From positions 1 to 64,000 of the forward strand of contig NZ_LT629793.1 of NCBI RefSeq assembly GCF_900105735.1: a stretch of DNA of 64,000 nucleotides, in the 5' to 3' direction. The stretch is from Pseudomonas yamanorum. Lineage in GTDB: Bacteria > Pseudomonadota > Gammaproteobacteria > Pseudomonadales > Pseudomonadaceae. Positions 1-29,660 of the stretch are shown here, piece by piece; position 1 is the first letter of the stretch; the number at the start of each line of letters is the position of its first letter. The notes below the pieces were generated by a model. The model was not told the origin of the DNA, ran no database searches, and worked only from the letters and a program-made list of their open reading frames with translations. Both the position numbers and the translations under genes were made by a program.

Positions 1-243
1 TAGGCACTCATTACCACAGAAATCCCAAAGGGAATTTGAAAGATACTAAGGAAATACCATACTGACGAATCAATACCGCCAAAAAGCTCACCAGCACTTG
101 TGATTAGGCCTACGATGAAACTAGCGCTAATCAGATCCAAAAGAGCCTGATATAACCAGTCTGCAATAGCAACAGGAATATTAATTATGAATTGAATTAT
201 TTCTTGAAATATGGATAAAAGCCAGTCACCAAAAAGCTGTCAT
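1..243 (-). pseudogene. Inovirus pVI-like/DUF2523 minor coat protein, cut by window edge and frameshifted
   Basis: Read leftwards from the ATG at 243, the frame stops after five codons. One fewer base in the A5 run at 231-235 gives a continuous protein that starts MTAFGDWLLSIFQEI and stays open to the window edge (about 80 residues). It has two long hydrophobic stretches. Small size, hydropathy and position after the adsorption gene fit the pVI-like (DUF2523) proteins that cap the virion together with pIII and normally precede the zot/pI assembly ATPase gene, which would lie off the window. Family is inferred from context. The break may be a base-calling error rather than real decay. Confidence 0.6.
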
Positions 244-279
244 TTCGACCTCAACTATAAAAATAGTAAATATCTAAGA

Positions 280-427
280 TTAGAAGGCCAAAAAAGTCTG
301 GGAGCCCAATGCAAGTTCAAAGTAATGCAAAACAAGTACTTCAACAATAAAAGCAGCTAACAAGCCAAAAAAACCCCAGCTAATAAAATATAAAAGTTCG
401 AAATAATTTAAGGGTGCGATTTTTCAT
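280..427 (-). pseudogene. Small phage membrane protein (about 48 aa), frameshifted at its start
   Basis: The ATG at 425-427 is out of frame with a clean 45-codon hydrophobic reading frame that ends in TAA at 280-282. Removing one base from the T5 run at 420-424 joins them into a protein beginning MKIAPLNYFELLYF with one strong membrane segment (ISWGFFGLLAAFIVEVLVL). It lies between the adsorption and pVI-like genes of the prophage. I do not recognise a family. It could be a minor structural or membrane accessory protein of the phage. That the frame is coding rests on its hydrophobic pattern and tight packing. Confidence 0.45.
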
Positions 428-452
428 TAGCTTCTCAAATCTTAATATGGGA

Positions 453-1481
453 TCACGCAGATAGGAATACACGAAGTGCGATAAGCGACCAAGCTGCAAG
501 AAACACAGCGCTTAGCAATGGTGAAATTTCAGCAAATAACACGCAATGAGCATCAAATGAAACAATAGTTCCTAAAATAGCAACATCAGCAGTTGGGCAC
601 TGACCACCGGAACCAGCAGCTGCAATTTTCCTTAAATTCAGTCATCGCTTGACCAAAACCAGATTCGTTAAGATCAACTTCCATGCCACGAACAAAAACA
701 CCGTAGTGAACAGAATTAACCCCATTATCTATTACGGCATCCGCATTCAACGATCCAGGGTTAGAGAAAGACAGCTCACCATCAAAACCGGAATCACCAT
801 CCCCACCGTTACCACCATGCCATCACCGCCGTCATCCCCTCCACCAGGATTGGAGCCATCGCCGCCGCCGTCGCCAGGTCAATAGAGGGAGTGAGAGGAT
901 CGCCAACGACGGAGCCGTATACCCGCTTCAGCACCACATGAAGGACTCGCGGAATTGAGATCCACAGAGAAGTTACAAAAACCAGTATCTGTAAGGCCTG
1001 GAGCGAGATAGCAGGTACCACCTTTGCGAACTTGCAAGGTAAGAGCAAGAGTTATGGCAAATGTCAGAAGTAACAGTACGAACCGACCAAATAACAAAAT
1101 ATTTATCTCCTGTCTTGCTGGTACTGGCATTCGGGCCACGAGCCTCAACAGTTGGAGGGCAAACGGCGGCCTCTTTAACGGTGCCAATACTATTATTAAT
1201 GACGTTTCCGAAAGACGTGTACGAGAAAGCACAATTGGCATTGGTCGAGCCAATCAATGTGCAAGCGCCGGCCTTGTAGTCTTTTCGGTTAACGTTTGTA
1301 TTAGAGCTAATGACAGAGCTTACAAAGGCGCTAACCAAGGCCTCTGGAGTTTTCTGAACTCCAGCAGTAGCGCAATCATTAGCATACGAAGTAGCAGTGG
1401 ATCCACTGCACTTCCACCCAGCAGAAGCAGAGGAAGAAAACGCAGCCAAAATAGAAAAGGCAATAAGTAAATGGCTTTCAT
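453..1481 (-). pseudogene. Inovirus adsorption (pIII/CoaA-like) protein, multiply frameshifted
   Basis: Six single-base breaks (near 1476-1478, 1023-1025, 922-924, 877-878, 816-820 and 626-629) separate segments that together read as one protein of about 340 residues. Its parts in order: a signal peptide (MKSHLLIAFSILAAFSSSASA), a cysteine-rich N-terminal domain, a second Cys-containing domain (TCYLAPGLTDTGFC), a long Gly/Asp/Asn-rich linker (GDGGGDGSNPGGGDDGG), a third domain, and a C-terminal membrane anchor (LLSAVFLAAWSLIALRVFL). This is the layout of filamentous-phage pIII receptor-binding proteins. No nonsense codon remains once frames are joined, so either the gene broke recently or the sequence has indel errors here. 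Confidence 0.7.
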
Positions 1482-1482
1482 A

Positions 1483-1557
1483 TCACCACCCCGAAAAGAC
1501 AGCGAACGAACAGCCGGAACCAATGACGAACATGGCGAAGTAATAGAGCTGATCCAT
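1483..1557 (-). CDS. Tiny phage membrane ORF (24 aa), pIX/pVII-like candidate
   Basis: An ATG-started frame between the coat-gene terminator and the adsorption gene encodes MDQLYYFAMFVIGSGCSFAVF plus three residues, one short hydrophobic helix. Its TGA lies only one base from the ATG of the adsorption gene (TGATATG), a spacing typical of coupled phage genes. Xanthomonas-type filamentous phages place a very small minor coat gene between gVIII and gIII, and this ORF sits in that slot. The call rests on position and hydropathy only; 24 codons could be open by chance. Confidence 0.35.
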   Translation of the reverse strand: MDQLYYFAMFVIGSGCSFAVFSGW

Positions 1558-1577
1558 GCAGCGGCCTCATTTTTTAT

Positions 1578-1603
1578 AAAAAAAGGGCGCCCGAAGACGC
1601 CCA
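1578..1603 (-). terminator. Rho-independent terminator after the major coat gene
   Basis: On the minus strand a seven-pair stem (GGGCGTC / GGCGCCC, one U-G pair) closes a UUCG tetraloop and is followed directly by a run of seven T. It sits about 20 bases after the coat gene stop. Filamentous phages commonly have a terminator here, so coat mRNA is made in excess over the adsorption and assembly genes. Confidence 0.85.
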
Positions 1604-1623
1604 GGTCACGCAGAGAAAGCGAC

Positions 1624-1851
1624 TTAACCGCGCAAGAAACCGACAACGATTTTCGCGCCTTTGATACCGGCATAAACACCAGCGAGGATGCCAGCGACAG
1701 CCAGGACACCAACGGAAATGGTGCTGAAGTCGATAGACGAAGTTAGGCCCGTATAGTCCCAGCCACCGGCAGGGTCAGCTGCAAAAACCGAAGGTGCAAC
1801 AACAGCCAGGGCAACAGCGGATACAGCTACAGCAGCAGTCTTTTTGAACAT
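1624..1851 (-). CDS. Inovirus major coat protein (pVIII-like)
   Basis: The 75-residue product has a signal peptide ending VFA, followed by a mature part starting ADPAGGWDY. The mature part has an acidic/polar N-terminus, one transmembrane helix (ISVGVLAVAGILAGVYAGI) and a basic C-terminus (KGAKIVVGFLRG). This is the classic pVIII plan: helices tile the virion, with the basic tail facing the DNA. The gene is intact, unlike its downstream neighbours, and is followed by a strong terminator. Confidence 0.92.
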   Translation of the reverse strand: MFKKTAAVAVSAVALAVVAPSVFAADPAGGWDYTGLTSSIDFSTISVGVLAVAGILAGVYAGIKGAKIVVGFLRG

Positions 1852-1860
1852 GGTGAATCC

Positions 1861-2085
1861 TCAGGATTGTTTAATGAAGTTTAGAAACGCACGAATTCCC
1901 ATCGACATAACCATAAAGCTGGCTACCAATGTGAACCCGGCGCCAAAAGCTTGAGCCAAAATAACTGGATCAAGTTGTGAAGGGTCAAAAGGGACAATGT
2001 AAGGAACAGAAACCCAATCGACCGAACACGAGGGAACACCGCCCTGAATAATTAATTCACCAGGGCAATGCAATAAACCGGTCAT
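1861..2085 (-). CDS. Small inovirus membrane protein (minor coat candidate)
   Basis: This 74-residue protein has a polar N-terminal half with two Cys (CPGELIIQGGVPSC) and a C-terminal membrane segment (ILAQAFGAGFTLVASFMVMSM) ending in a short basic tail. Its ATG overlaps the stop of the ssDNA-binding gene (TAATG), and the coat gene follows after 9 bases. Position between ssDNA-binding and major coat genes matches the pVII slot of Xanthomonas-type inoviruses. I recognise no specific family, so 'minor coat' is an inference. Confidence 0.65.
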   Translation of the reverse strand: MTGLLHCPGELIIQGGVPSCSVDWVSVPYIVPFDPSQLDPVILAQAFGAGFTLVASFMVMSMGIRAFLNFIKQS

Positions 2086-2382
2086 TACGCAGGCTTCTGC
2101 GGTGTCGAAGAACCAGGAGCGCCGGAACTCACGCGACGCCCTTGACGAGGATCGACTTCAAAAATAAGCCGATCATCACGAACTTGTGCAATCACATCAC
2201 ACTCATACTTTCCGGGTTGAGGAACCTGCTGCGGAGTCTCAGCGTAAAAAAGTACACTTCTGCGGATACGGAATATTTGGCAAATGTGCATATGCTTCAA
2301 ACATGCAATAGGGCTTGCCAGACTTTGCAGCAGTACCACTGCGGTGATTGCCAGTTACTTCAACTACGATAACGTTAGACAT
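2085..2382 (-). pseudogene. Inovirus ssDNA-binding protein (pV-like), frameshifted
   Basis: The ATG frame reads MSNVIVVEVTGNHRSGTAAK and on to PYPQKCTFLR before a stop. One fewer base in the A6 run at 2246-2251 restores CTFYAETPQQVPQPGKYECD and an open frame to the TAA at 2085, giving about 98 residues. The pattern of an N-terminal beta strand, a GTAAKSGKPY loop, QKCTFYAE and a flexible Ser/Pro-rich tail resembles the small OB-like proteins that coat phage single strands. The stop overlaps the next ATG (TAATG). If the indel is real, the truncated protein would lack half its fold and the phage could not make virions. Confidence 0.65.
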
Positions 2383-2392
2383 GTTGATGCCC

Positions 2393-2650
2393 TTATCTCA
2401 GTGTTGGAAACCCAGGAACAGTGCCGGGTTTACGATATGCCCAACTGGGCGCAATAGCTTCAGGGTTGCGCCTGAAGGTTAGAAATTGACGTTTATTCCG
2501 TTGACGAGCTACAGCTTGGTTTGAAAAGTCAGCCAGCACCGTTCGCATTACATCATTTGCGATACTCTTTACTAGCGACTCATCTGTGACGTGATTACGA
2601 ATATCTGCTTCAATATTCCAGCGCAGAACTTGAAATTGCTTCTTATCCAT
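2393..2650 (-). CDS. Phage protein of unknown function (85 aa)
   Basis: I chose the ATG that overlaps the preceding stop (TAATG), giving MDKKQFQVLRWNIEADIRNH. The protein is basic, predicted helical in its first two thirds (TDESLVKSIANDVMRTVLADF), with a run of basic residues (ARQRNKRQFLTFRR) and a Pro-rich tail. There is no membrane segment or signal peptide. It lies in the rep-to-ssDNA-binding interval, so a role in DNA replication or its control is possible but unproven. Confidence 0.55.
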   Translation of the reverse strand: MDKKQFQVLRWNIEADIRNHVTDESLVKSIANDVMRTVLADFSNQAVARQRNKRQFLTFRRNPEAIAPSWAYRKPGTVPGFPTLR

Positions 2651-2883
2651 TAGAACCCCATCCATTCGGCTACACAGGTTGTCCCTTTTTCTTGACGCTC
2701 TACTAACCAAATACGCTCAGGTTTAACGCCCTGCTCTTTTCGTGCCTCAACAGCTTTGAATGTCTGCTCGACCTGCTGAGCAAGAACAGGGTTAATGAAA
2801 GCACCTAGTACTCGTTGTTGTTCAGCCAAACGCCGTTGTTGGCCACTTGTAAGCTGAATACCTTGAAAACTTACAGTTCTCAC
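2650..2883 (-). CDS. Phage protein of unknown function (77 aa)
   Basis: It starts at a GTG that overlaps the rep stop codon (GTGA), so translation is probably coupled to rep. The product is highly charged and mostly helical (LTSGQQRRLAEQQRVLGAFI, then QTFKAVEARKEQG), soluble, with no signal peptide. Its stop overlaps the next gene's ATG. Neither family nor role is recognised. Overlaps at both ends strongly support it as a real gene of the phage replication operon. Confidence 0.6.
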   Translation of the reverse strand: MRTVSFQGIQLTSGQQRRLAEQQRVLGAFINPVLAQQVEQTFKAVEARKEQGVKPERIWLVERQEKGTTCVAEWMGF

Positions 2884-4010
2884 GCTGCAACCTGGTGCAG
2901 GTGATTAGGACGCTGATACCAAGTTGGCACAGACAAAGTGCTTTTCGTCACCTCGCGGCACTGCCGAACGAAGACCGGGGCAAAACGACTGGTATCGCAA
3001 GCATTACGAATATTAATGCCGATTTTATTAAGCCGAGCCGCATGAGTTTCAAAAGCACGCTGAGACAAACCGTGATGATGACCGCTCATCCAAAGAATGG
3101 CGTAAGAAGAAGTAGCATTTGCAGAAGCCCTCCCCTTACAAATGCCTTGTTCAATCAGTTTGTCAGCAATACTCTGAAGGTCCATTGCGGTCACCTTTAA
3201 CTTTTCATCTATTTTAAGAAACTCACTATGGAGTTCGGCCAGACGCCTTTCATCAAATAAGCCCCAATAACAAAGGGTCTCACGCTGTAAATATTCGCTC
3301 TTAAGCTCTTGTTCCATGCGAACTACGCCTTCTTGTGCGCAGTAGTTTTTAACTCGCTGAACATATTTGTATTCTTCTGAGTCCTCACCAAAGACACGCT
3401 TAATCTTTGGAAGACAGTTCTGATCCATTTCAAAGGCCTTGTCATACGCCTTTCGATATTGAAGGCGACCGCCTTTACCATTTCCTTTGGAAGTCCAAGC
3501 AACAGTGCGCCCGTTGGGATACAGAAAGCCGATGGAATGACCGATTCGCTGGCTAGAAACGCCGCGCAGATAGGCAAGAACATTGCCCTCCCCCAATGAA
3601 ACGTTGGTGGTCAAATCTATCCGTTCAATCTTTGCCCCATCGGCGATACGGTCGCCGCACTTTGCTCCTGACTCACCTTGGCGAATATCAATGCGAGTAC
3701 AGCGGGTAAAACCAGGAAGGCCGTATTCACGCAACAGCGCGTTGTAAACCGAGACGCATTGCTCGATAGAAGTAAAACCAAACAAGTTGTCGAGCCGCCC
3801 TACCCGGCTGGGATTTCCTTCAACGCGGATCTTGCGACCCTGAACATGAATCGTGACCGATGTCGAAAAGCTGGCCTCATGCTTGAAACGAGGCTGGCGA
3901 GTGCTAAGGACTTCGTTTGTATTGGCATCTATCGTCAAGGTAAACACGTCGCACACGACAGGTAGATCGTGGTCGTGCTCCTGCGAAATGGTTAGCCAAT
4001 CTATGAACAT
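2880..4010 (-). CDS. Phage replication initiation protein (gene II/X family, RstA-like)
   Basis: The 376-residue protein starts MFIDWLTISQEHDHDLPVV, the signature opening of inovirus replication initiators (a short 'DWLT-S' strand). It contains FTRCTRIDIRQGE, an R-x-D strand typical of the N-terminal catalytic fold, and a C-terminal region like Phage_X. Such proteins nick the plus-strand origin and start rolling-circle replication. The gene is intact, transcribed away from the repressor, and the first of the phage structural/replication operon. A nick-site Tyr cannot be assigned by eye. Confidence 0.85.
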   Translation of the reverse strand: MFIDWLTISQEHDHDLPVVCDVFTLTIDANTNEVLSTRQPRFKHEASFSTSVTIHVQGRKIRVEGNPSRVGRLDNLFGFTSIEQCVSVYNALLREYGLPGFTRCTRIDIRQGESGAKCGDRIADGAKIERIDLTTNVSLGEGNVLAYLRGVSSQRIGHSIGFLYPNGRTVAWTSKGNGKGGRLQYRKAYDKAFEMDQNCLPKIKRVFGEDSEEYKYVQRVKNYCAQEGVVRMEQELKSEYLQRETLCYWGLFDERRLAELHSEFLKIDEKLKVTAMDLQSIADKLIEQGICKGRASANATSSYAILWMSGHHHGLSQRAFETHAARLNKIGINIRNACDTSRFAPVFVRQCREVTKSTLSVPTWYQRPNHLHQVAA

Positions 4011-4059
4011 CCGAGCGCCTTACTGACAAGTCAAAAGCGGTTAACTGCATCCAAAAGGA

Positions 4060-4150
4060 CGGTATTCCGCAATCATAGGCGGTCTTCCGTTTGAGTCAAG
4101 AGAAAAGAACGGTTTTTAGCCGATACTTGTCCGATAGAAACGGTAAACCG
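4060..4150. promoter_or_regulatory. Three operator-like repeats between rep and the repressor gene
   Basis: The divergent promoter region holds CGGTATTCCG (4060), CGGTCTTCCG (4080) and CGGTAAACCG (4141), all fitting CGGT-N3-CCG; the last is a perfect palindrome. A looser copy (CGGTTTTTAGCCG) lies at 4110. The first two are exactly 20 bp apart, about two helical turns, on the rep side; the third is just upstream of the repressor start. This arrangement fits binding by the XRE repressor to control rep and its own gene. Confidence 0.6.
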
Positions 4151-4166
4151 CATTCGGAGACGCAAA

Positions 4167-4589
4167 ATGGGCATCGGCACCAGGATCAGGCAAGAGCGGC
4201 TCAAGCAAGGTCTTGAGCTGAAGGAGCTAGCAAAATTGAGCGGTATCCCGGAGCGGACGCTTGCAGACATCGAGCGGGAGGTTTCGAGCCCTCGAGCAGA
4301 AAACCTCAAAAAGGTAATCATCTCTTTGGGCTGTTCAGCTGATCAGATCATGTTCGACGACGACGAGCTGACTGAGGACGGAGACCTAGCACTACTGGTG
4401 CGCGAATTAGGGAAAACCGAGGAAGACACGCGACAGACAGTGAAGCGAGTCATCCGAGCAATGCTGGTTCAGGAGCGCGTTTTTGAGCTAGAGAAAATTC
4501 GCAATTTCGACGACGCTCACAAGGAAGAAAACAAGCAGCGACAGAACCTGGCTTTGCCATTGAAACGCTATGAAAAAGCGAGCAAGTGA
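4167..4589 (+). CDS. XRE-family phage repressor
   Basis: Residues 4-58 form a Cro/C1-type helix-turn-helix (RIRQERLKQGLELKELAKLS, then GIPERTLADIEREVSSPRAENL). The rest of the 140 residues is a charged helical extension suited to dimerisation (DGDLALLVRELGKTEEDTRQ). A good ribosome site (GGAG, seven bases before ATG) supports the start. It is divergent from rep, like the repressor C genes of filamentous prophages, and should hold rep silent by binding the CGGT-N3-CCG sites. No peptidase domain is visible, so induction would not work by LexA-type self-cleavage. Confidence 0.8.
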   Translation: MGIGTRIRQERLKQGLELKELAKLSGIPERTLADIEREVSSPRAENLKKVIISLGCSADQIMFDDDELTEDGDLALLVRELGKTEEDTRQTVKRVIRAMLVQERVFELEKIRNFDDAHKEENKQRQNLALPLKRYEKASK

Positions 4590-4597
4590 AGTCGGAA

Positions 4598-4694
4598 ACC
4601 GAAGAAGTCTTCGGTAAAGTGGGGGTGTAACAGCACCCCCACCCAGGCCGTTCCGGCCTGCCCTCATGTGAGCATTTTCGCGGACGCGAAAAAT
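4598..4694. other. Five tandem hairpins: candidate inovirus replication origin/packaging region
   Basis: After the repressor gene come consecutive inverted repeats: 4598-4615 (ACCGAAG / CTTCGGT), 4619-4642 (GTGGGGGTG / CACCCCCAC), 4644-4660 (CAGGCCG / CGGCCTG), a short one at 4663-4672, and 4674-4694 (TTTTCGCG / CGCGAAAA). Four have perfect stems of 7-9 bp, separated by only 1-4 bases. None is followed by a T run, so they are poor terminators. Filamentous-phage intergenic regions carry just such hairpins, which act as packaging signal and minus- and plus-strand origins. The assignment is by structure, not by homology. Confidence 0.6.
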
Positions 4695-4730
4695 CAGCAT
4701 AAAAATCCAACCCTCCCGAGAGATCTAGCA

Positions 4731-5102
4731 ATGCCTGATCGAGGAAAAATCGCAGCTACTGCGCGTTATGACCTGAGCACGGATCTCATTGTTGTCCAGC
4801 TTTTGACGGGTGCAGAACTGTGTTTCAAGCCGGCGATTTGCATTGACCTGCTAGGCCTATCACCGCAAGGGCTGGCAACTATCCAGGTCAGCGAGGACGG
4901 TGCTGGGATCGAGTTTCTCAATGGGGATGTCTGGGCGTATTTGCCGGAGTTGATGGAGGGGCAAAGAACTGGTCTTTCAGGCGTGCACGATAGGCTATTA
5001 GCGATCACTGCACAGATTGATTTGGTGATTGGAAGCGACCAGAAACACCCTTTATGGCACTCCCTTCAAGACCTCAAAAGTTGCTTAGGTTCAGACTACT
5101 AG
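4731..5102 (+). CDS. DUF2442-like protein
   Basis: The 123-residue product starting MPDRGKIAATARYDLS has the DUF2442 look: a strand reading out 'L-TGAELCFKPAICIDL', the LSPQGLATIQVSEDGAGIEF core and a final W-x-YLPELM strand pair, followed by a short helical tail. DUF2442 proteins are small and often found on mobile elements or near toxin-antitoxin pairs; their function is not established. An upstream GTG inside the hairpin region was set aside because the ATG fits the domain start better. The gene lies between the phage hairpin region and the dif-like border, so it may be prophage cargo. Confidence 0.6.
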   Translation: MPDRGKIAATARYDLSTDLIVVQLLTGAELCFKPAICIDLLGLSPQGLATIQVSEDGAGIEFLNGDVWAYLPELMEGQRTGLSGVHDRLLAITAQIDLVIGSDQKHPLWHSLQDLKSCLGSDY

Positions 5103-5245
5103 ATTGGACCTGCCGGGACCTATCCGATGATAGCGCGGCACGTCACGGGACCGCGCAGGCTTCGCACAAAACCCGGGGCAATGCCTTGGGGTAATCAGGG
5201 CGCGAAGTGACACCGCCTCAACTACAGGCAATTTGAACGCGACAA

Positions 5246-5282
5246 AAAAAACCAGGGCTCTCAGGAACGCTGGGGTTTTTCT
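5246..5282. terminator. Terminator-like hairpin in the 5103-5430 gap
   Basis: A short CCAG/CTGG stem with an A8 run on its left and T5 on its right could terminate transcription from either side, for example the DUF2442 gene on the plus strand. The stem is weak (4 bp plus A-T extension). The remainder of this 328-base gap shows GC-rich imperfect repeats (around 5299-5358) but no convincing gene. Confidence 0.45.
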
Positions 5283-5430
5283 TTGGACGATAGACCGGCC
5301 GGCTTTGCCGGGTATCGGCGCCGGTGTTGCAACGCACTAGCGAAGATCTGCGCGGCGCCTAATGCCCTTCAGGCAGGTCGAGGTATGGCATAAAATGCTA
5401 TCGGGCGCAAAACTGAGATAACCAAACAAA

Positions 5431-6168
5431 ATGGAATTGGAAATGACTGAAAAAAAGGACAAAAAGCCAGGCTATCAGCTCACAAAAAAACAGCATTTCC
5501 ATATGAAAGCTTTGCTTGAACGGTTCGTAAATAGCTCACAAAAAGTACGTGTAGTACGTAAACCGTTCGGAACGACAAGCTTTCTAGGAGTAAGAAATCA
5601 GATCTTTATCGGAAAGAGAAGCTGGTCTCAAGAGACCGAGCAGGCAATAAGCTGGCCGATCGAAACCGCCTTCTTAGCGGAAGTCACACGTGTCGAAGCT
5701 GGAGAGGTCATTCAGAGTCACGAGGCCGTATCCCAATATCACCTGCTTTGGACGCTGCGGCACCATTTCGCGAAAAACCCCAATGAGGACAGAGTGCTGT
5801 ATCCGGGGATGGATTGCCATATGAGCGAAGAGCTTGAAGAGTGGGGAGATGCTAATTACAAGGTGCCAATAAGAAATGGCGGGATAATTCCGGGACGGTT
5901 CGCCACAACGCTGGATATCAAAGAGTTGCTCGCATCTCCTGAGAATGTGGCCCTATATGAGGGTGTTTTTTGGCGTGTTATCAAATCTGAAACTGATCGA
6001 TTCATCTCTCCGGACCAGTACCGTCACAAGCTTTTGATCGTTATCAATCCGTATACCGTGCTTCAGGGCGGCTACCAGGAAGAGCCTCCCTACATAGCTT
6101 CACCGGAAGAAGTTCGCATGTACAACGAAGTCGCTGAAAAGGAAGCCGTGAGCTTTACCTTTGGATAA
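5431..6168 (+). CDS. Protein of unknown function near the prophage border
   Basis: This 245-residue soluble protein is not recognised. It begins with a Lys-rich stretch (MTEKKDKKPGYQLTKKQHFH) and is otherwise mixed alpha/beta with many aromatic and acidic residues; there is no signal peptide or membrane segment. A second ATG four codons in (at 5443) has a better-placed GGAA and may be the true start. Lower GC and unusual codons (AGA, ATA) set it apart from the flanking chromosome, suggesting acquired DNA. It ends 15 bases before the dif-like site, so it may be the last gene of the integrated element. Confidence 0.65.
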   Translation: MELEMTEKKDKKPGYQLTKKQHFHMKALLERFVNSSQKVRVVRKPFGTTSFLGVRNQIFIGKRSWSQETEQAISWPIETAFLAEVTRVEAGEVIQSHEAVSQYHLLWTLRHHFAKNPNEDRVLYPGMDCHMSEELEEWGDANYKVPIRNGGIIPGRFATTLDIKELLASPENVALYEGVFWRVIKSETDRFISPDQYRHKLLIVINPYTVLQGGYQEEPPYIASPEEVRMYNEVAEKEAVSFTFG

Positions 6169-6183
6169 TCCGGCACTATTTTG

Positions 6184-6211
6184 GCCTCGCATAATAGACG
6201 TTATGGGTAAA
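6184..6211 (+). other. dif-like XerC/XerD site, putative prophage attachment site
   Basis: GCCTCGCATAA (XerC-type arm), TAGACG (6-base centre) and TTATGGGTAAA (XerD-type arm) match the dif plan. As I recall the Pseudomonas/E. coli dif, the left arm agrees at 9 of 11 positions through TCGCATAA, and the right arm keeps TTATG and the A-rich end. Several filamentous phages without their own integrase insert at dif using host XerC/D. The site falls exactly where low-GC phage-like DNA gives way to ordinary chromosomal genes. The partner copy should lie left of the window. Confidence 0.55.
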
Positions 6212-6403
6212 TCCTCGCCGGGGCTTCGCGATTTTCCCGCCGTCGGATTCTGCCCTCTCGGGCGACAAGTACCATAACGTCAACCCCATTATGCGCAATC
6301 ATATGATTCATTATCAGGGGCAGTGCCAACCAGATTTCAACCAGCGCACCACGCTCCTCATCGGCCAAACCCAACCCATCTCGATTTGGCCGATGACCCT
6401 GAA

Positions 6404-7153
6404 TCACACCTGAGCGAAACCACCATCCACAAACATCTCGCTGCCTGTCATGAAGCTGCTTTCATCCGACGCCAGGAACAATGCCGCATTCGCCACTTCA
6501 TCTGGCAAACCCATACGACCCAACGGCACGCGCGTCACCATCGAGTCGACAATCGCATCCTTCTGGCCGGTTCCCGAAAGCGCTCGGTCCAAACCAGGCG
6601 TCGTCGTTGGCCCAGGTGAAAGCACGTTGACCCGAATACCCGTGCCTTGCAGATCCAACGTCCAGCTTCTGGCAAAGTTTCGCAGTGCACCTTTCGAGGC
6701 GCTGTACACGCTGAACGCTGCGGTGCCCATCGAAGCGGTCGTCGAACCTGTCAGCACAATCGAGCCGCCGGCGCTCATCAATGGCAACGCGTTTTGAACG
6801 GTAAACAGCGTGCCTTTCACGTTCACGCCAAATGTGCGATCAAATGATTCCTCGGTGATCGATCCGATGGGTTCCAGATCCCCCAAGCCTGCATTGGCAA
6901 ACAACACATCAATGTGGCCTTTGTCTGTTTTGATCTGCGCGAATACCCGCTCCAGATCCTGCAGATTTGAAATGTCGCCCTGGATTGCAACGGCGTCATG
7001 CCCGATCAGGACCAACGCTTTGTCCAGTTCCTCTTGGCGACGTCCGACGATAACGACCTGTGCGCCTTCGGCCGCAAAACGTATGGCACTGGCCAAGCCA
7101 ATCCCGCTGTTGCCACCGGTGACGACTGCGATTTTTCCGTTGAGTCTGTTCAT
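6404..7153 (-). CDS. Short-chain dehydrogenase/reductase, NAD(P)-dependent
   Basis: This classical SDR has 249 residues. TGGNSGIG near the N-terminus binds the dinucleotide, NAG follows beta-4, a serine lies in the LTGST stretch, and YSASK supplies the catalytic Tyr and Lys. GRR after beta-2 hints at NADP preference. Substrate is unknown. It is divergent from an HxlR regulator that probably controls it; such pairs often respond to quinones, aldehydes or other electrophiles. Confidence 0.85.
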   Translation of the reverse strand: MNRLNGKIAVVTGGNSGIGLASAIRFAAEGAQVVIVGRRQEELDKALVLIGHDAVAIQGDISNLQDLERVFAQIKTDKGHIDVLFANAGLGDLEPIGSITEESFDRTFGVNVKGTLFTVQNALPLMSAGGSIVLTGSTTASMGTAAFSVYSASKGALRNFARSWTLDLQGTGIRVNVLSPGPTTTPGLDRALSGTGQKDAIVDSMVTRVPLGRMGLPDEVANAALFLASDESSFMTGSEMFVDGGFAQV

Positions 7154-7209
7154 GAGTGTTTCCCATAAATGTTGAGGCTCAAGCGTAGATCCGCGCTATT
7201 GTTTTGAAT

Positions 7210-7233
7210 AGTATGCACCTTTTGGTAAGTACT
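7210..7233. promoter_or_regulatory. Dyad operator in the SDR/HxlR divergent promoter
   Basis: AGTA-N3-ACC-TTTT-GGT-N3-TACT is a perfect dyad of seven fixed pairs. AGTA/TACT ends are common in HxlR-family operators. It lies between the two divergent start codons and upstream of the ATG at 7252, which argues against the earlier possible start at 7204. Confidence 0.5.
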
Positions 7234-7251
7234 CAGCCTGAGGGCACAAAC

Positions 7252-7611
7252 ATGTCGAATAGCACCTTTAATTGCGGGCTCGACGCCGCCCTGGCGGTGA
7301 TTGGCGGGAAATGGAAACCGTTGGTCCTGTTCCACCTGGCCCATGAAGTTCACCGTTATGGCGAACTGCGGCGTGCAGTTGGCGGCGTGACGGATAAGGT
7401 GCTGATCCAGCAGTTGAAAGAGCTGGAACGCGATGAAATCATCGATCGCATCGACTTCAAGGAAATCCCGCCGAAGGTCGAATACTCCCTGACCCCATTC
7501 GGGCGTTCGCTGGCCAAGGCCTTGGGGCCTCTTTGCCAATGGGGCACCGAGCATATGTTGGCGGTTGAACGCATCAGCGAACGCCGAACAGGCGCCCTCG
7601 CCCAGCCTTGA
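7252..7611 (+). CDS. HxlR-family transcriptional regulator
   Basis: The 119-residue protein has the HxlR order: an N-terminal Cys (FNCGLDAALAVIGGKWKPLV), the invariant GGKW, then a winged helix (HRYGELRRAVGGVTDKVLIQ, QLKELERDEIIDR) and the wing motif KVEYSLTPFG. In several HxlR proteins that Cys senses electrophiles or oxidants. GAGGG seven bases before the ATG supports this start over one 16 codons earlier. It probably controls the divergent SDR gene and itself. Confidence 0.85.
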   Translation: MSNSTFNCGLDAALAVIGGKWKPLVLFHLAHEVHRYGELRRAVGGVTDKVLIQQLKELERDEIIDRIDFKEIPPKVEYSLTPFGRSLAKALGPLCQWGTEHMLAVERISERRTGALAQP

Positions 7612-7623
7612 ACTCACAAAATG

Positions 7624-7659
7624 TTTAACTCGACTAAATGGATATTTAGTTGAGTTAAA
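7624..7659. repeat. Inverted repeat 'site A' resembling the recombinase-associated palindrome
   Basis: TTTAACTCGACTAAAT and ATTTAGTTGAGTTAAA are 16-bp arms with one mismatch around GGAT. Read as arms around an 8-bp centre it is TCGACTAA-ATGGATAT-TTAGTTGA, sharing its left inner 8 bp exactly with the palindrome at 28787-28826. It follows the HxlR stop by 12 bases. No T run follows, so a simple terminator is less likely, though not excluded. Confidence 0.6.
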
Positions 7660-7809: not shown

Positions 7810-9015
7810 ATGTCTCGAAGTATCGCCCACCTCGCCCTGCTGCTGGGCTTGATCACCGCCGTCGGCCCGTTTGCCATCGACATCTACCTGCCGGCTTTGC
7901 CAACGCTGGGCGCCAGCCTGCAAGCCTCTCCCGCTGCGGTGCAGATGAGCCTGACGGTGTTCTTCATGATCATCGGTGTGTGCCAGCTGTTCTACGGCCC
8001 GATCAGCGATGTGTTCGGGCGCAAACCGCCGATCTATGCCGGCCTGGTGATTTTTATCGTGGGCAGCATTGGCTGCGCCCTCGCCCCCTCCATCGAAGCG
8101 CTGATCGGCTTCCGGGCGTTGCAGGCCTTTGGCGCCTGCGCCGGGATGGTGATTCCCCGGGCAATTGTCCGTGACTTGTACACCGGCCATGAAGCTGCAC
8201 GTTTGATGGCGTTGTTGATGCTGGTGGTGAGTATTTCACCGATCCTCGCGCCATTGGCCGGCAGCCTGATCATCGCGGTGTGGAGCTGGCGCGAAGTGTT
8301 TCTGGTGCTGGGTGTGGCCGCAGTGTTGTGCCTGATCATGACCGCCGTGCAGTTGCCGGAAACCCACCCCGCCGAACGCCGCCTGGGCAAGACCCTGGGC
8401 AATGCGTTCGGCAGCTACGGCGCGTTGCTGCGCGATCCAGTGTTTACCGGGTTGTCGGTGGTGGGCGGCTTTGGCCTGGCGACGTTCTTCGTGTTCATCG
8501 GCAGCGCGCCGTTCGTGTACATCGAGTACTACGGGCTCACGCCGACGCAATTCAGCCTGTGCTTTGCCCTCAACGCAGCGTCGTTTTTTGCCCTTAGCCA
8601 ACTGACGGCGCGCTTGAGTGCCCGCTTCGGTTTGGCCCCTCTGATTCGTTGGTCGGTGGCCGGCGTGGCGACCGTCATGACCTTGCTCGCCCTTACCACA
8701 CTGTGGGGTAACAGCCTGCCGTTGATGATGGCGCTGCTGTTTATCGGCTTTGGTTTCCTCGGCCTGCTATTGCCGGCGGCCGGGGTGTTGTCCCTGGAAG
8801 ATCACGGCGCCGTAGCGGGTTCTGCATCGGCATTGTTGGGCGCGATCCAGATGATCACCGCGGCCGTGGCCATGTCCCTGGCCGGCCTGTTCGCCGACCA
8901 CACACCGGCACCGATGTTGATCGGCATCGCACTCAGCGCTGTGGCGGCGATGCTCACCGTGTGGTGGACGCTGCGCCGCCTGCCGGCGCACCTGCAACCT
9001 CAGCCGCGTACCTGA
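7810..9015 (+). CDS. Bcr/CflA-family drug-resistance MFS exporter
   Basis: This protein has 401 residues and 12 predicted membrane segments, opening ITAVGPFAIDIYLPALPTLG as in Bcr/CflA proteins (DHA1 family). It has the MFS loop motif GPISDVFGRKPPIYAG between helices 2 and 3 and the R-A-x-VRDLYTG stretch of Bcr homologues in the helix 4-5 region. Members export bicyclomycin, sulfonamides, chloramphenicol or cysteine-type compounds using proton flow; the substrate cannot be read here. Its 3' end overlaps the convergent DUF971 gene by 16 bases. Confidence 0.9.
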   Translation: MSRSIAHLALLLGLITAVGPFAIDIYLPALPTLGASLQASPAAVQMSLTVFFMIIGVCQLFYGPISDVFGRKPPIYAGLVIFIVGSIGCALAPSIEALIGFRALQAFGACAGMVIPRAIVRDLYTGHEAARLMALLMLVVSISPILAPLAGSLIIAVWSWREVFLVLGVAAVLCLIMTAVQLPETHPAERRLGKTLGNAFGSYGALLRDPVFTGLSVVGGFGLATFFVFIGSAPFVYIEYYGLTPTQFSLCFALNAASFFALSQLTARLSARFGLAPLIRWSVAGVATVMTLLALTTLWGNSLPLMMALLFIGFGFLGLLLPAAGVLSLEDHGAVAGSASALLGAIQMITAAVAMSLAGLFADHTPAPMLIGIALSAVAAMLTVWWTLRRLPAHLQPQPRT

Positions 9016-27852: not shown

Positions 27853-28767
27853 CTACAAATCAAATCGATCCACTGCCCGCCGGCGTTCGTTGTCGTCACG
27901 CACGTCATAGTTGGCGGTGGTCTGGATATTGGTGTGGTGCGCCAGCTTCTGGGCGATGGACAGGTCGTACTCTTCGATCACTCGGGTGATGAACGAACGG
28001 CGGAAATCATGGGGCATGATTTTCACGCCGACTTGTTCCCCGCGCTGACGGGCGATGTAGTAAATCGCGTGCTTGGTAATGCGCTCGCGGGTGATGTGGC
28101 TGCCTCGGCGAATGCGGTTGAACAGGAACTTGTCGTCCTGCTCACCGGGTTTCAACTGGCTGCGACGGAACTCCAGCCACGCCTCCAGCTTGGCGAAGGC
28201 CCAGGCCGGCGCGTACTTGATCAGTTGTTTGTTGCCCTTGCCGGTGACGTGCAGGCTGCGCTCGTCAAAATTGACCTGGCCCAACTCTATATTCACCGAC
28301 TCCGACTTGCGCATGCCCGAGCCATACAGGATCCCGATCACCGCTGCGTCCCGCAGGCCCTGGGGACGCGGGTCGGCGGCGCAGACCTCCATCAACTCAC
28401 GAATCAGCGTACGCCGCAGGTTGCGGCCCTGGCTCAGCCGCGTGCCGGCCATGGCCTTGACCGAACGCATCTTCAACAGGTGATCCTGGCTGATCAGGCT
28501 CATGCGCCAGGCCTCGTTCATCACCCCACGCACGGCGTTGACGTACAGCGATGAGGTGTTCGGCGCATAACCGTCTTCCCGCAACGCCGCCACCAGGGCC
28601 ATGACGTGTTCAGGCTGCAGCAGGTGCCAGTCGATGTCTTCGAGGTTGATGTCTTCAAAGCCCAGGCGGTCGGCGGCGTCTTGCAGTACGTAGCGCATGG
28701 TCAGCTGGCTGGAGGGTGCCAGGCGGGTGAGGTAAAGGGTCAGCGGGTTGCGGGTAGACTCAGTCAA
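27853..28767 (-). CDS. Solitary tyrosine recombinase (XerC/integrase family)
   Basis: The 304-residue protein has an N-terminal SAM-like DNA-binding domain (NPLTLYLTRLAPSSQLTMRY) and a full catalytic set: Arg in GSGMRKSE, Lys in VTGKGNKQ, His-x2-Arg in MPHDFRRSF, His in LAHHTNIQTT and the nucleophile Tyr in ANYDVRDD. It appears active. The start is a TTG; no ATG precedes the N-terminal domain. No phage or transposon genes flank it, and it is not next to the usual xerC neighbours, so it is an orphan recombinase. A large lox-like palindrome sits 20 bases upstream. Confidence 0.88.
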   Translation of the reverse strand: MTESTRNPLTLYLTRLAPSSQLTMRYVLQDAADRLGFEDINLEDIDWHLLQPEHVMALVAALREDGYAPNTSSLYVNAVRGVMNEAWRMSLISQDHLLKMRSVKAMAGTRLSQGRNLRRTLIRELMEVCAADPRPQGLRDAAVIGILYGSGMRKSESVNIELGQVNFDERSLHVTGKGNKQLIKYAPAWAFAKLEAWLEFRRSQLKPGEQDDKFLFNRIRRGSHITRERITKHAIYYIARQRGEQVGVKIMPHDFRRSFITRVIEEYDLSIAQKLAHHTNIQTTANYDVRDDNERRRAVDRFDL

Positions 28768-28786: not shown

Positions 28787-28826
28787 TAAATATGTCGACT
28801 AACCATTTGTTTAATCGACATATTTA
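28787..28826. repeat. Lox-like palindrome 'site B' upstream of the tyrosine recombinase
   Basis: TAAATATGTCGACTAA, an 8-base centre CCATTTGT, and TTAATCGACATATTTA form 16-bp arms with a single mismatch. This is the plan of tyrosine-recombinase crossover sites (Cre/lox has 13-8-13, Xer/dif 11-6-11). It is also placed to overlap the recombinase promoter, so it could be an operator bound by the recombinase. Its inner arms resemble site A at 7624-7659. Confidence 0.65.
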
Positions 28827-28871: not shown

Positions 28872-29660
28872 CTATTCCTGATCGTCTTCCGCCGGGGCGG
28901 GTGTCTGCTGCTGGCTCCAGTCGGTGTCCTGCTTCTGCATCAAGGCAAACCAGTGCTGGCGCATGAACTCCAGGTACGGTTTGGGCGCCTTGGCAAAGTC
29001 TTCCTCGTCGCCATAACAGCCCGGAAGTGGCAGCTCGGTGCCTTGCTCCTTGTACTGGCTGACCAGCGCTTGCTGGGCGGCGATGCTGCAATCCTTGGGC
29101 AACGGCATGCCTTGCAGGGCGCCGGCATCTTCATCCCACCAGCTGGCACCATAGCGGTCGATGCCACGCAGGCGGTACTTCTGCGACTTGCCGATGTGCA
29201 TGATCAGCTTGAAATCATTGGGGCTGACATCGCTGGTGCAGGTGCGGCTATACCCCACCGTGACCTGACTGATGCCGTCACCCAGCAGGTCGGTGACCTT
29301 GGTGGCGTCGGTGTTGTAGTGCGCCCCGGCGTCGAACTCGCAATGCTGCACGTCGTCGTAGAGCATCCACAGGCGCTTGGGCCGGTCACCGTCGAGCAGG
29401 TACTGGGCCGCATAGACAAAGGCGGACTGCGCGCCGTCGTCGTCGCGTTCGCTGACTTGCTCAGCGAGCACCAACAGATTCTTGCCCTGTTTATCGCTCC
29501 AGGTGAAGGCGCCGACCTGTTTACCCCGCACTTCTACGCCATCGGGCACCTGGTCGATGGCCGTCAGTGCCACGCCGTCATCGGCCCGCACACTCGTGGC
29601 CCAGGCCACCGTCATCAACAACACCATCAACATTGGCCGTAAACGCTGCACGCTATTCAT
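28872..29660 (-). CDS. Conserved-looking periplasmic protein of unknown function
   Basis: A signal peptide (LMVLLMTVAWATSVRA) precedes about 235 residues that look soluble and beta-rich, with four Cys in the mature part (HCEFD, RTCTS, KDCSI, PGCYG) that could form disulfides. KQGKNLLVLAEQVSERDDDG and FKLIMHIGKSQKYRLRG suggest a domain acting on or sensing surface material, but I cannot name a family with confidence. The C-terminus is Gln/Pro/acid-rich and probably flexible. It is transcribed alone, towards the recombinase. Confidence 0.7.
   Translation of the reverse strand: MNSVQRLRPMLMVLLMTVAWATSVRADDGVALTAIDQVPDGVEVRGKQVGAFTWSDKQGKNLLVLAEQVSERDDDGAQSAFVYAAQYLLDGDRPKRLWMLYDDVQHCEFDAGAHYNTDATKVTDLLGDGISQVTVGYSRTCTSDVSPNDFKLIMHIGKSQKYRLRGIDRYGASWWDEDAGALQGMPLPKDCSIAAQQALVSQYKEQGTELPLPGCYGDEEDFAKAPKPYLEFMRQHWFALMQKQDTDWSQQQTPAPAEDDQE

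Follow-up and report, generated by a model that had tools for sequence, protein, structure and literature searches.

A tyrosine recombinase gene (here REC) lies behind a 40-bp palindrome (palindrome B) in the 64,000-bp stretch of Pseudomonas yamanorum DNA analysed here, referred to as the window. Which site this enzyme recombines, and for what purpose, is the question raised by the locus. A preliminary description of the window proposed palindrome B as a lox-like crossover site with an 8-bp spacer, and pointed to a similar sequence some 21 kb away (site A). Comparison with 249 Pseudomonas genomes drew attention to site A rather than to the palindrome; the features concerned are listed in Table 1.

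Table 1. Features of the window discussed in the text
Feature	Position	Strand	Remarks
Distal of two tandem inovirus prophages at dif (partly in the window)	1-6298		Replication protein at 2883-4010 (minus); orf245 at 5431-6168 (plus)
Left junction of the prophage array	6187-6298		Two inverted dif-like half-sites, CTXphi type
Host cargo cassette	6299-7623		SDR oxidoreductase and HxlR regulator; bounded by SITE and the old dif half-site
SDR-family oxidoreductase gene	6404-7153	minus	Homologue L188:17583-18374 = PF13561
HxlR-family regulator gene	7204-7611	plus	Homologue L170:13137-13544 = PF01638
SITE, host copy (site A)	7624-7659	plus	Proposed core site of REC, 12-6-12
MFS transporter gene	7810-9015	plus	Host gene beside SITE; near SITE in several close relatives too
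REC	27853-28767	minus	Tyrosine recombinase, 304 aa, TTG start at 28767; putative third Xer-type, distinct from XerC/XerD
Palindrome B	28787-28826	minus	Covarying inverted repeat/hairpin upstream of REC

The recombinase

The reading frame of REC was intact and displayed a PF00589 domain (2.9e-24). Its scores against the XerC and XerD equivalog models (113.5 and 99.9 bits) were far under the respective cut-offs of 335.15 and 329.6, which place it outside both equivalogs. The catalytic R-K-H-R-H-Y set (R153, K177/K180, H253, R256, H278 and Y287) was invariant in an alignment of 12 sequences, which leaves out rows L366 and L354. The best solved relative was XerD (1a0p, 1e-17). REC was present as a single copy in 171 of the 249 genomes and was not found in the other 78 (E<=1e-60). 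Among the matches listed, 18 of 28 genomes had REC no farther than 50 kb from dif (0.45 expected), the median distance being 32.5 kb and the largest 381 kb. The phage records of INPHARED yielded 51 matches, all below 60 % identity (25-29 % for the 10 listed).

Site A and its family

The resemblance of site A to palindrome B, already pointed out in the preliminary description, was confirmed: site A displayed an exact copy of TCGACTAA and matched TTARTYGA, with 8 bp between them. When up to three mismatches were allowed, TCGACTAA-N8-TTARTYGA was encountered in the window only at these two places, each time on both strands (four matches versus 0.34 expected; none of 100 shuffles reached four). 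The pattern TCRAYTAA-N8-TTARTYGA (at most one mismatch) had no third place in the whole 7.09-Mb genome, and its reversed control had no match. The 8-base spacing held between the shared inner arms of site A but not for the family, whose variable centre measured 6 bp across genomes (12-6-12), and the lox-like 8-bp spacer was dropped for this reason. The family is described as AACTcAACTAAA-N6-TTTAGTTgAGTT, hereafter SITE, with conserved 12-bp arms and a free 6-bp centre.

With at most one mismatch, SITE was found in 157 of the 249 genomes, while the reversed control matched none of them. These comprised 153 of the 171 REC-positive and 4 of the 78 REC-negative genomes (Fisher 1.6e-40, kinship ignored). 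A relaxed pattern (three mismatches) recovered SITE in 17 of the 18 remaining REC-positive genomes, always 585-978 bp from a dif-like match of 23-26 out of 28 bases; the reversed control also matches genomes at three mismatches, so that it is the proximity of dif that gives these relaxed matches credibility. The only REC-positive genome devoid of SITE under the relaxed pattern was G072, which displayed a REC of 76 % identity beside two weaker matches at 29-30 %. Among the REC-negative genomes, seven of 78 matched the relaxed pattern, five of them near dif (including G216). Each of these five yielded no more than two matches to REC, whose 29-31 % identity is what XerC and XerD would give. Altogether, all but one of the 171 REC-positive genomes (170) contained SITE, against five of the 78 REC-negative ones with SITE near dif, the genomes not being phylogenetically independent. 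Two expectations from the preliminary description were thereby borne out, namely that sites co-occur with the recombinase and that they cluster in one chromosome region, which proved to be the dif region.

Among 293 genomes of the order searched for REC homologues (E<=1e-40), three from outside the genus had one, 34-38 % identical to REC. Each of the three stretches examined around them (18-20 kb) contained a single 13-6-13 palindrome bordered by AAA/TTT and paired at 10 or more of 13 positions, situated 0.2-1.0 kb upstream of REC and displaying [CT]TACTT arms. Only 0.12 such palindromes were expected in the three stretches together, by a criterion that was set after seeing them although its borders are those of SITE. 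No dif was seen in these stretches. A palindrome at each of these distant recombinases is a link between REC and sites of this plan that depends neither on dif nor on phages.

REC is most likely a third, dedicated Xer-type tyrosine recombinase acting at SITE. That it catalyses recombination there is inferred from the co-occurrence, the position of SITE and the palindromes near distant homologues. The suspicion that the recombinase and its site form an undescribed system also held, in that no description was found in the published literature searched, preprints aside, which included PMC8138268, PMC2731167, PMC6390507 and PMC7549136, each in excerpt.

The slot between SITE and dif

The genome carrying the window possesses a dif site. 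In all 29 intervals selected because REC and dif were within 24 kb on one contig, SITE was 578-2167 bp from dif. In a larger set, 72 out of 75 loci displayed SITE 85-3460 bp from dif (median 798 bp), although many of these loci were chosen by their SITE and dif positions and the search between the two was limited to 4 kb. The three loci left out were G230a, which is without dif, and G052 and G142, which offered no SITE-dif pair that could be used; in G052, SITE was about 23 kb from dif. Stretches L199, L200, L221 and L237-L239 stand outside all counts. In the P. yamanorum genome the host SITE is now 20 kb from dif, displaced by prophages. G106 was peculiar in that REC itself sat between SITE and dif, its frame ending 59 bp before dif.

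One group of Pseudomonas genomes displayed a variant dif (mostly TNCGTGTAATGTATATTATGTTAAA) that is missed by the standard pattern (loci L228-L233, L328, L331, L333-L335, L337-L340, L342-L344 and L346). In G194, a second dif-like match was located on another contig (G194:C2:94802-94826) and is possibly a plasmid-borne dif.

The DNA between SITE and dif, here called the cassette, was short and differed between genomes. The 72 loci contained 90 ORFs of at least 85 aa, which fell into 49 clusters, and 16 of 29 cassette ORFs compared with Pfam gave a match. The families encountered were SDR, HxlR, Cupin_5, DUF4019, LysR, OprD porin, DUF4238 and GNAT, as well as hydrolase, LprI, RES, beta-lactamase-fold, methyltransferase, DUF2251 and two transposition proteins. 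Homologues of the two genes of the host cassette matched PF13561/PF00106 and PF01638. A homologous SDR gene was located between SITE and dif in nine of the 72 loci (G004, G017, G048, G088, G117, G119, G172, G206 and G240), accompanied by HxlR in eight of the nine according to ORF clustering, and in G048 according to tblastn.

Breakpoints

The 72 loci form 2556 pairs, which are not independent of each other. In 41 pairs the left flank was shared while the cassette was not; in 105, some cassette sequence was shared while the left flank was not, the sharing extending over at least half of the shorter cassette in 63 of them. Flank and cassette were both shared in 21 pairs and neither was shared in 2389. 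In aligned loci, identity dropped at the edge of SITE, and on the other side homology broke at dif, the latter by inspection of aligned flanks. Loci G117, G119, G165 and G185 shared both outer flanks and displayed different cassettes (five pairs). Cargo thus varied between conserved flanks, with breakpoints at SITE and (by inspection) at dif, as in two-site cassette exchange.

The left half of SITE followed the left flank in 25 of the 41 pairs of the first kind, with nine against and seven equal. The corresponding idea that its right half travels with the cassette was not borne out (20 for, 31 against and 12 equal among the 63 pairs).

Filamentous prophages and viral contigs

The recombinase gene had been described as having no phage neighbours, which fails for the wider locus: the window begins, up to about position 6298, in an inovirus prophage. 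Prophage DNA spanned positions 7074953-7087425 of the genome in addition to window positions 1-6298, as two tandem copies at dif. The copies were 99.8 % identical and differed through 17 gap openings without a single mismatch; the split reading frames of the distal copy are maybe assembly errors. At the left junction of the array, the outer half-site, GATTGCGCATAAT, is taken to be the old host XerC arm.

Each of the two prophages displayed a SITE after its secretin gene, so that three copies of SITE flank the prophages. Integration at SITE was considered for this reason and rejected, since relatives showed integration at dif, with SITE inside the prophage. The elements are of the type of CTXphi and related IMEX: inoviruses without an integrase (as judged from the prophage ORFs of at least 120 aa in this genome and their Pfam matches), with paired inverted dif-like attachment sites, integrated at dif. 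Integration of CTXphi-type IMEX at dif is reported to be irreversible (PMC4246890, in excerpt).

Inovirus genes were present in eight of the 72 loci, within the stretch examined. The phage replication protein was detected in 12 of the 249 genomes (E<=1e-30), of which 11 were REC-positive; the twelfth, G014, was without REC and SITE. Loci were examined in eight of these 11 REC-positive genomes and all eight contained SITE.

In IMG/VR, the exact SITE pattern retrieved nine contigs, eight of which were inoviruses of this family. The other one, the 20-kb contig L242, displayed no phage marker in the 3.7 kb examined. Among 79 contigs encoding the replication protein, SITE was found in 21 when at least 19 of 24 arm matches were demanded, and in 23 at 18 or more. 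SITE-bearing viral contigs were longer (median 9260 versus 7188 bp). A dif-like arm followed SITE at 64 bp in eight of the 23 contigs and at 656-1048 bp in 12, one of which (L274) was measured from the host-side SITE; none was found after SITE in the remaining three. SITE was missing from four phages whose replication proteins are related, three of P. aeruginosa and one from a bird swab. Paired inverted dif-like attachment sites resembling those of CTXphi were observed in the Pseudomonas-type inoviruses L241, L245 and L249.

Cargo common to phages and chromosomes

Cassettes carried by phages also occurred on chromosomes. The 656-bp cassette of the prophage in G168 was 92 % identical to that of G103 and 87 % identical to that of G210 over its full length, and no inovirus genes were found in the 3.5-3.7 kb to the left of these two. 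In G140, 569 bp of the same cassette (92 % identity) were found; the SITE in front of them is of phage type in its centre and right arm, and its left arm is unlike. Viral contig L266 matched the cassette of G005 (L225) at 93 % over 693 bp, the G005 cassette being interrupted by an IS21-type element. Altogether, a phage-borne cassette matched over at least half of the shorter one in seven of 64 loci without inovirus genes, including G007, for which only 171 bp of left flank were compared. No phage copy of the cassette was found for the other 57.

From the computed sites, their co-occurrence with REC, their positions, the breakpoints and the common cargo, the following exchange and the order of its steps may be pictured. 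The core site of REC would be SITE, in which a free 6-bp overlap separates two 12-bp arms (AACTcAACTAAA and its mirror), and SITE and dif would bound a small cargo slot, usually of 0.1-3.5 kb. A CTXphi-type filamentous phage would enter by XerC-type recombination of its folded attachment site with dif, bringing its own SITE, often followed by its own cargo, beside that attachment site. REC would then bind and recombine the host SITE with the phage SITE, so that the phage body and the old cargo would be lost and the phage cargo would stay in the slot; the excised circle would consist of the phage and the old host cargo. Taken as a whole, this would be a natural recombinase-mediated cassette exchange carried out by two different Xer-type systems. 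As far as can be judged from sequence, such a two-site exchange between chromosome and filamentous phages, with REC acting at SITE and XerCD at dif, is the probable explanation, if only by a modest degree.

The centres of SITE differed between copies in six of the eight prophage-bearing genomes, and exchange would consequently be blocked in these six. As a general reason for the persistence of prophages, differing centres nevertheless fail in G197 and G024, where the prophages persist although the centres agree.

Palindrome B

The palindrome before the recombinase gene is real: its 16-bp arms are complementary at 15 of 16 positions around an 8-bp centre, 19 bases from the TTG start of REC. Its supposed conservation upstream of REC orthologues held in 55 of 80 loci (L003-L057), all from one Pseudomonas clade, but not in the other 25 (L058-L082), where it was missing from the 120 bp upstream of REC. 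A covariance model matched 40 of the 249 genomes (E<=0.01), in all 40 directly upstream of REC, and revealed no second copy in any of the 249; the filters used in this search were stricter and lose weak matches. The proposal that the 40-mer is itself the crossover site was consequently not supported, the palindrome being restricted to a clade and single-copy, whereas the family of site A is the general one. A palindrome was also present upstream of REC in G106 and, as mentioned above, in the three loci outside the genus.

The arms of palindrome B covary, with 46 both-side changes versus 12.2 in shuffles. On the REC-gene tree, 17 compensatory branch changes were counted; 200 random re-pairings gave 1.9 on average and never more than 10. 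Such paired changes in the middle of the arms fit base pairing or the upkeep of symmetry better than a fixed recognition sequence, and are compatible with RNA pairing, symmetric protein recognition and template-switch repair alike. The predicted folding energy was -16.8 kcal/mol (z -6.75). Compared with the arms of SITE, palindrome B displayed 15-18 matches out of 24 in the eight loci scored (L003-L008, L348 and L351), while the best chance matches per 7 kb reached 13-17 out of 24 in 25 loci without it. This likeness is weak against chance, so that descent from SITE is possible. Palindrome B may control REC, be it as a diverged SITE or as an operator or leader hairpin; autoregulation at this putative operator is plausible, and in the exchange pictured above the palindrome could, as a diverged SITE or leader hairpin, limit REC expression.

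The gene across palindrome B from REC (window positions 28872-29660) matched NF046077, a surface polysaccharide biosynthesis family. In the clade without palindrome B, an element near ACAAATTCATATTAATGC...TTTCAGTGCATTTATA recurred 0.2-2.5 kb upstream of REC in loci L058, L061, L076 and L081.

Alternative explanations

The main rival holds that REC and SITE are primarily a second system for resolving chromosome or phage multimers beside XerCD/dif, akin to XerS/difSL or XerH/difH, cassette change being a by-product of phage traffic. A mostly single-copy site in the dif region with conserved arms and a free centre, a single-copy recombinase and tandem prophages whose identical SITE copies could be resolved would all suit such a role. 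It is nevertheless considered unlikely: REC was not found in 78 of 249 genomes (E<=1e-60), and six REC-negative genomes searched more loosely gave two weak matches each, at the level of XerC and XerD. The variable contents of the slot and the phage-borne SITE beside cargo would also be left unexplained, and a role in chromosome resolution is not needed by the data. Of phase variation, likewise suggested in the preliminary description, no sign was seen. A clearly smaller chance is given to SITE being a phage element, such as a terminator, an origin-region hairpin or a packaging signal after the secretin gene, with host copies as prophage relics and the link with REC as a clade effect. SITE does follow pIV in the phages, and the host SITE folds as a hairpin and could be a relic; yet 58 of the 79 viral contigs with this family of replication protein, partial contigs among them, were without SITE (at 19 or more of 24 matches), as were the three P. 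aeruginosa phages and one more phage of the family. Palindromes of the same plan at REC homologues outside the genus also speak against a phage element, as does the contrast between REC-positive and REC-negative genomes (170 of 171 versus five of 78).

Two further explanations appear very improbable. Palindrome B adjoins REC and has symmetric arms in a site-like geometry, which speaks for it as the crossover site of REC, but its absence from 25 of 80 loci, the lack of a second copy in the 249 genomes (E<=0.01, stricter filters) and the variation of its mid-arm in pairs (17 compensatory changes versus at most 10 in 200 re-pairings) argue against it. Equally improbable is the view that homologous recombination in the flanks, or a different recombinase at SITE, exchanges the cassettes. 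Close relatives do have similar flanks, but breakpoints at SITE and (by inspection) at dif were also seen between genomes with unlike flanks, and GCATAA, the core of the XerC/D arms, is not part of SITE. Cassette exchange by REC at SITE and XerCD at dif is retained as the preferred reading.

Relation to known systems

The single-recombinase modules XerS/difSL and XerH/difH are described as alternatives to XerCD/dif (PMC5357621, in excerpt). As in these modules, one Xer-type recombinase is accompanied by its own linked site in the terminus region. Unlike them, REC coexists with dif and with proteins at the level of XerC and XerD, and SITE bounds exchangeable cargo; it does not stand in place of XerCD/dif, since dif lay 0.1-3.5 kb from it in 72 of 75 loci. 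In Legionella, a single recombinase (XerL) and its terminus site likewise came to notice through a mobile element, LME-1, with a mimic of that site, but LME-1 integrates at the site, while the Pseudomonas phages integrate at dif and SITE is a second site (PMC9765430, in excerpt). With CTXphi-type IMEX, as far as described in excerpts of PMC4246890, the phages share two inverted dif-like half-sites and tandem prophages at dif; a second site for another host recombinase finds no mention there, and here REC/SITE could offer an exit that leaves cargo behind.

The pdif modules of Acinetobacter plasmids and integron cassettes are small cargo units between recombinase sites. The slot resembles them in this respect and differs in that each end is the site of another recombination system, and in that there is usually one slot per chromosome, shared with filamentous phages.

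If true, the exchange pictured here would mean that the terminus, in a genus studied at length, possesses a second special site and a third recombinase, and would explain the change of the DNA beside dif from strain to strain. Filamentous phages devoid of an integrase would gain an exit route while donating cargo, and REC and SITE could serve as a site-specific tool working beside dif. In its widest form the proposal is more tentative, its chances being put slightly short of even: the Pseudomonas terminus may be a one-slot cargo locus that trades genes with filamentous phages through XerCD at dif and a third Xer-type recombinase at a dedicated site, the phages delivering new cargo and removing the old.
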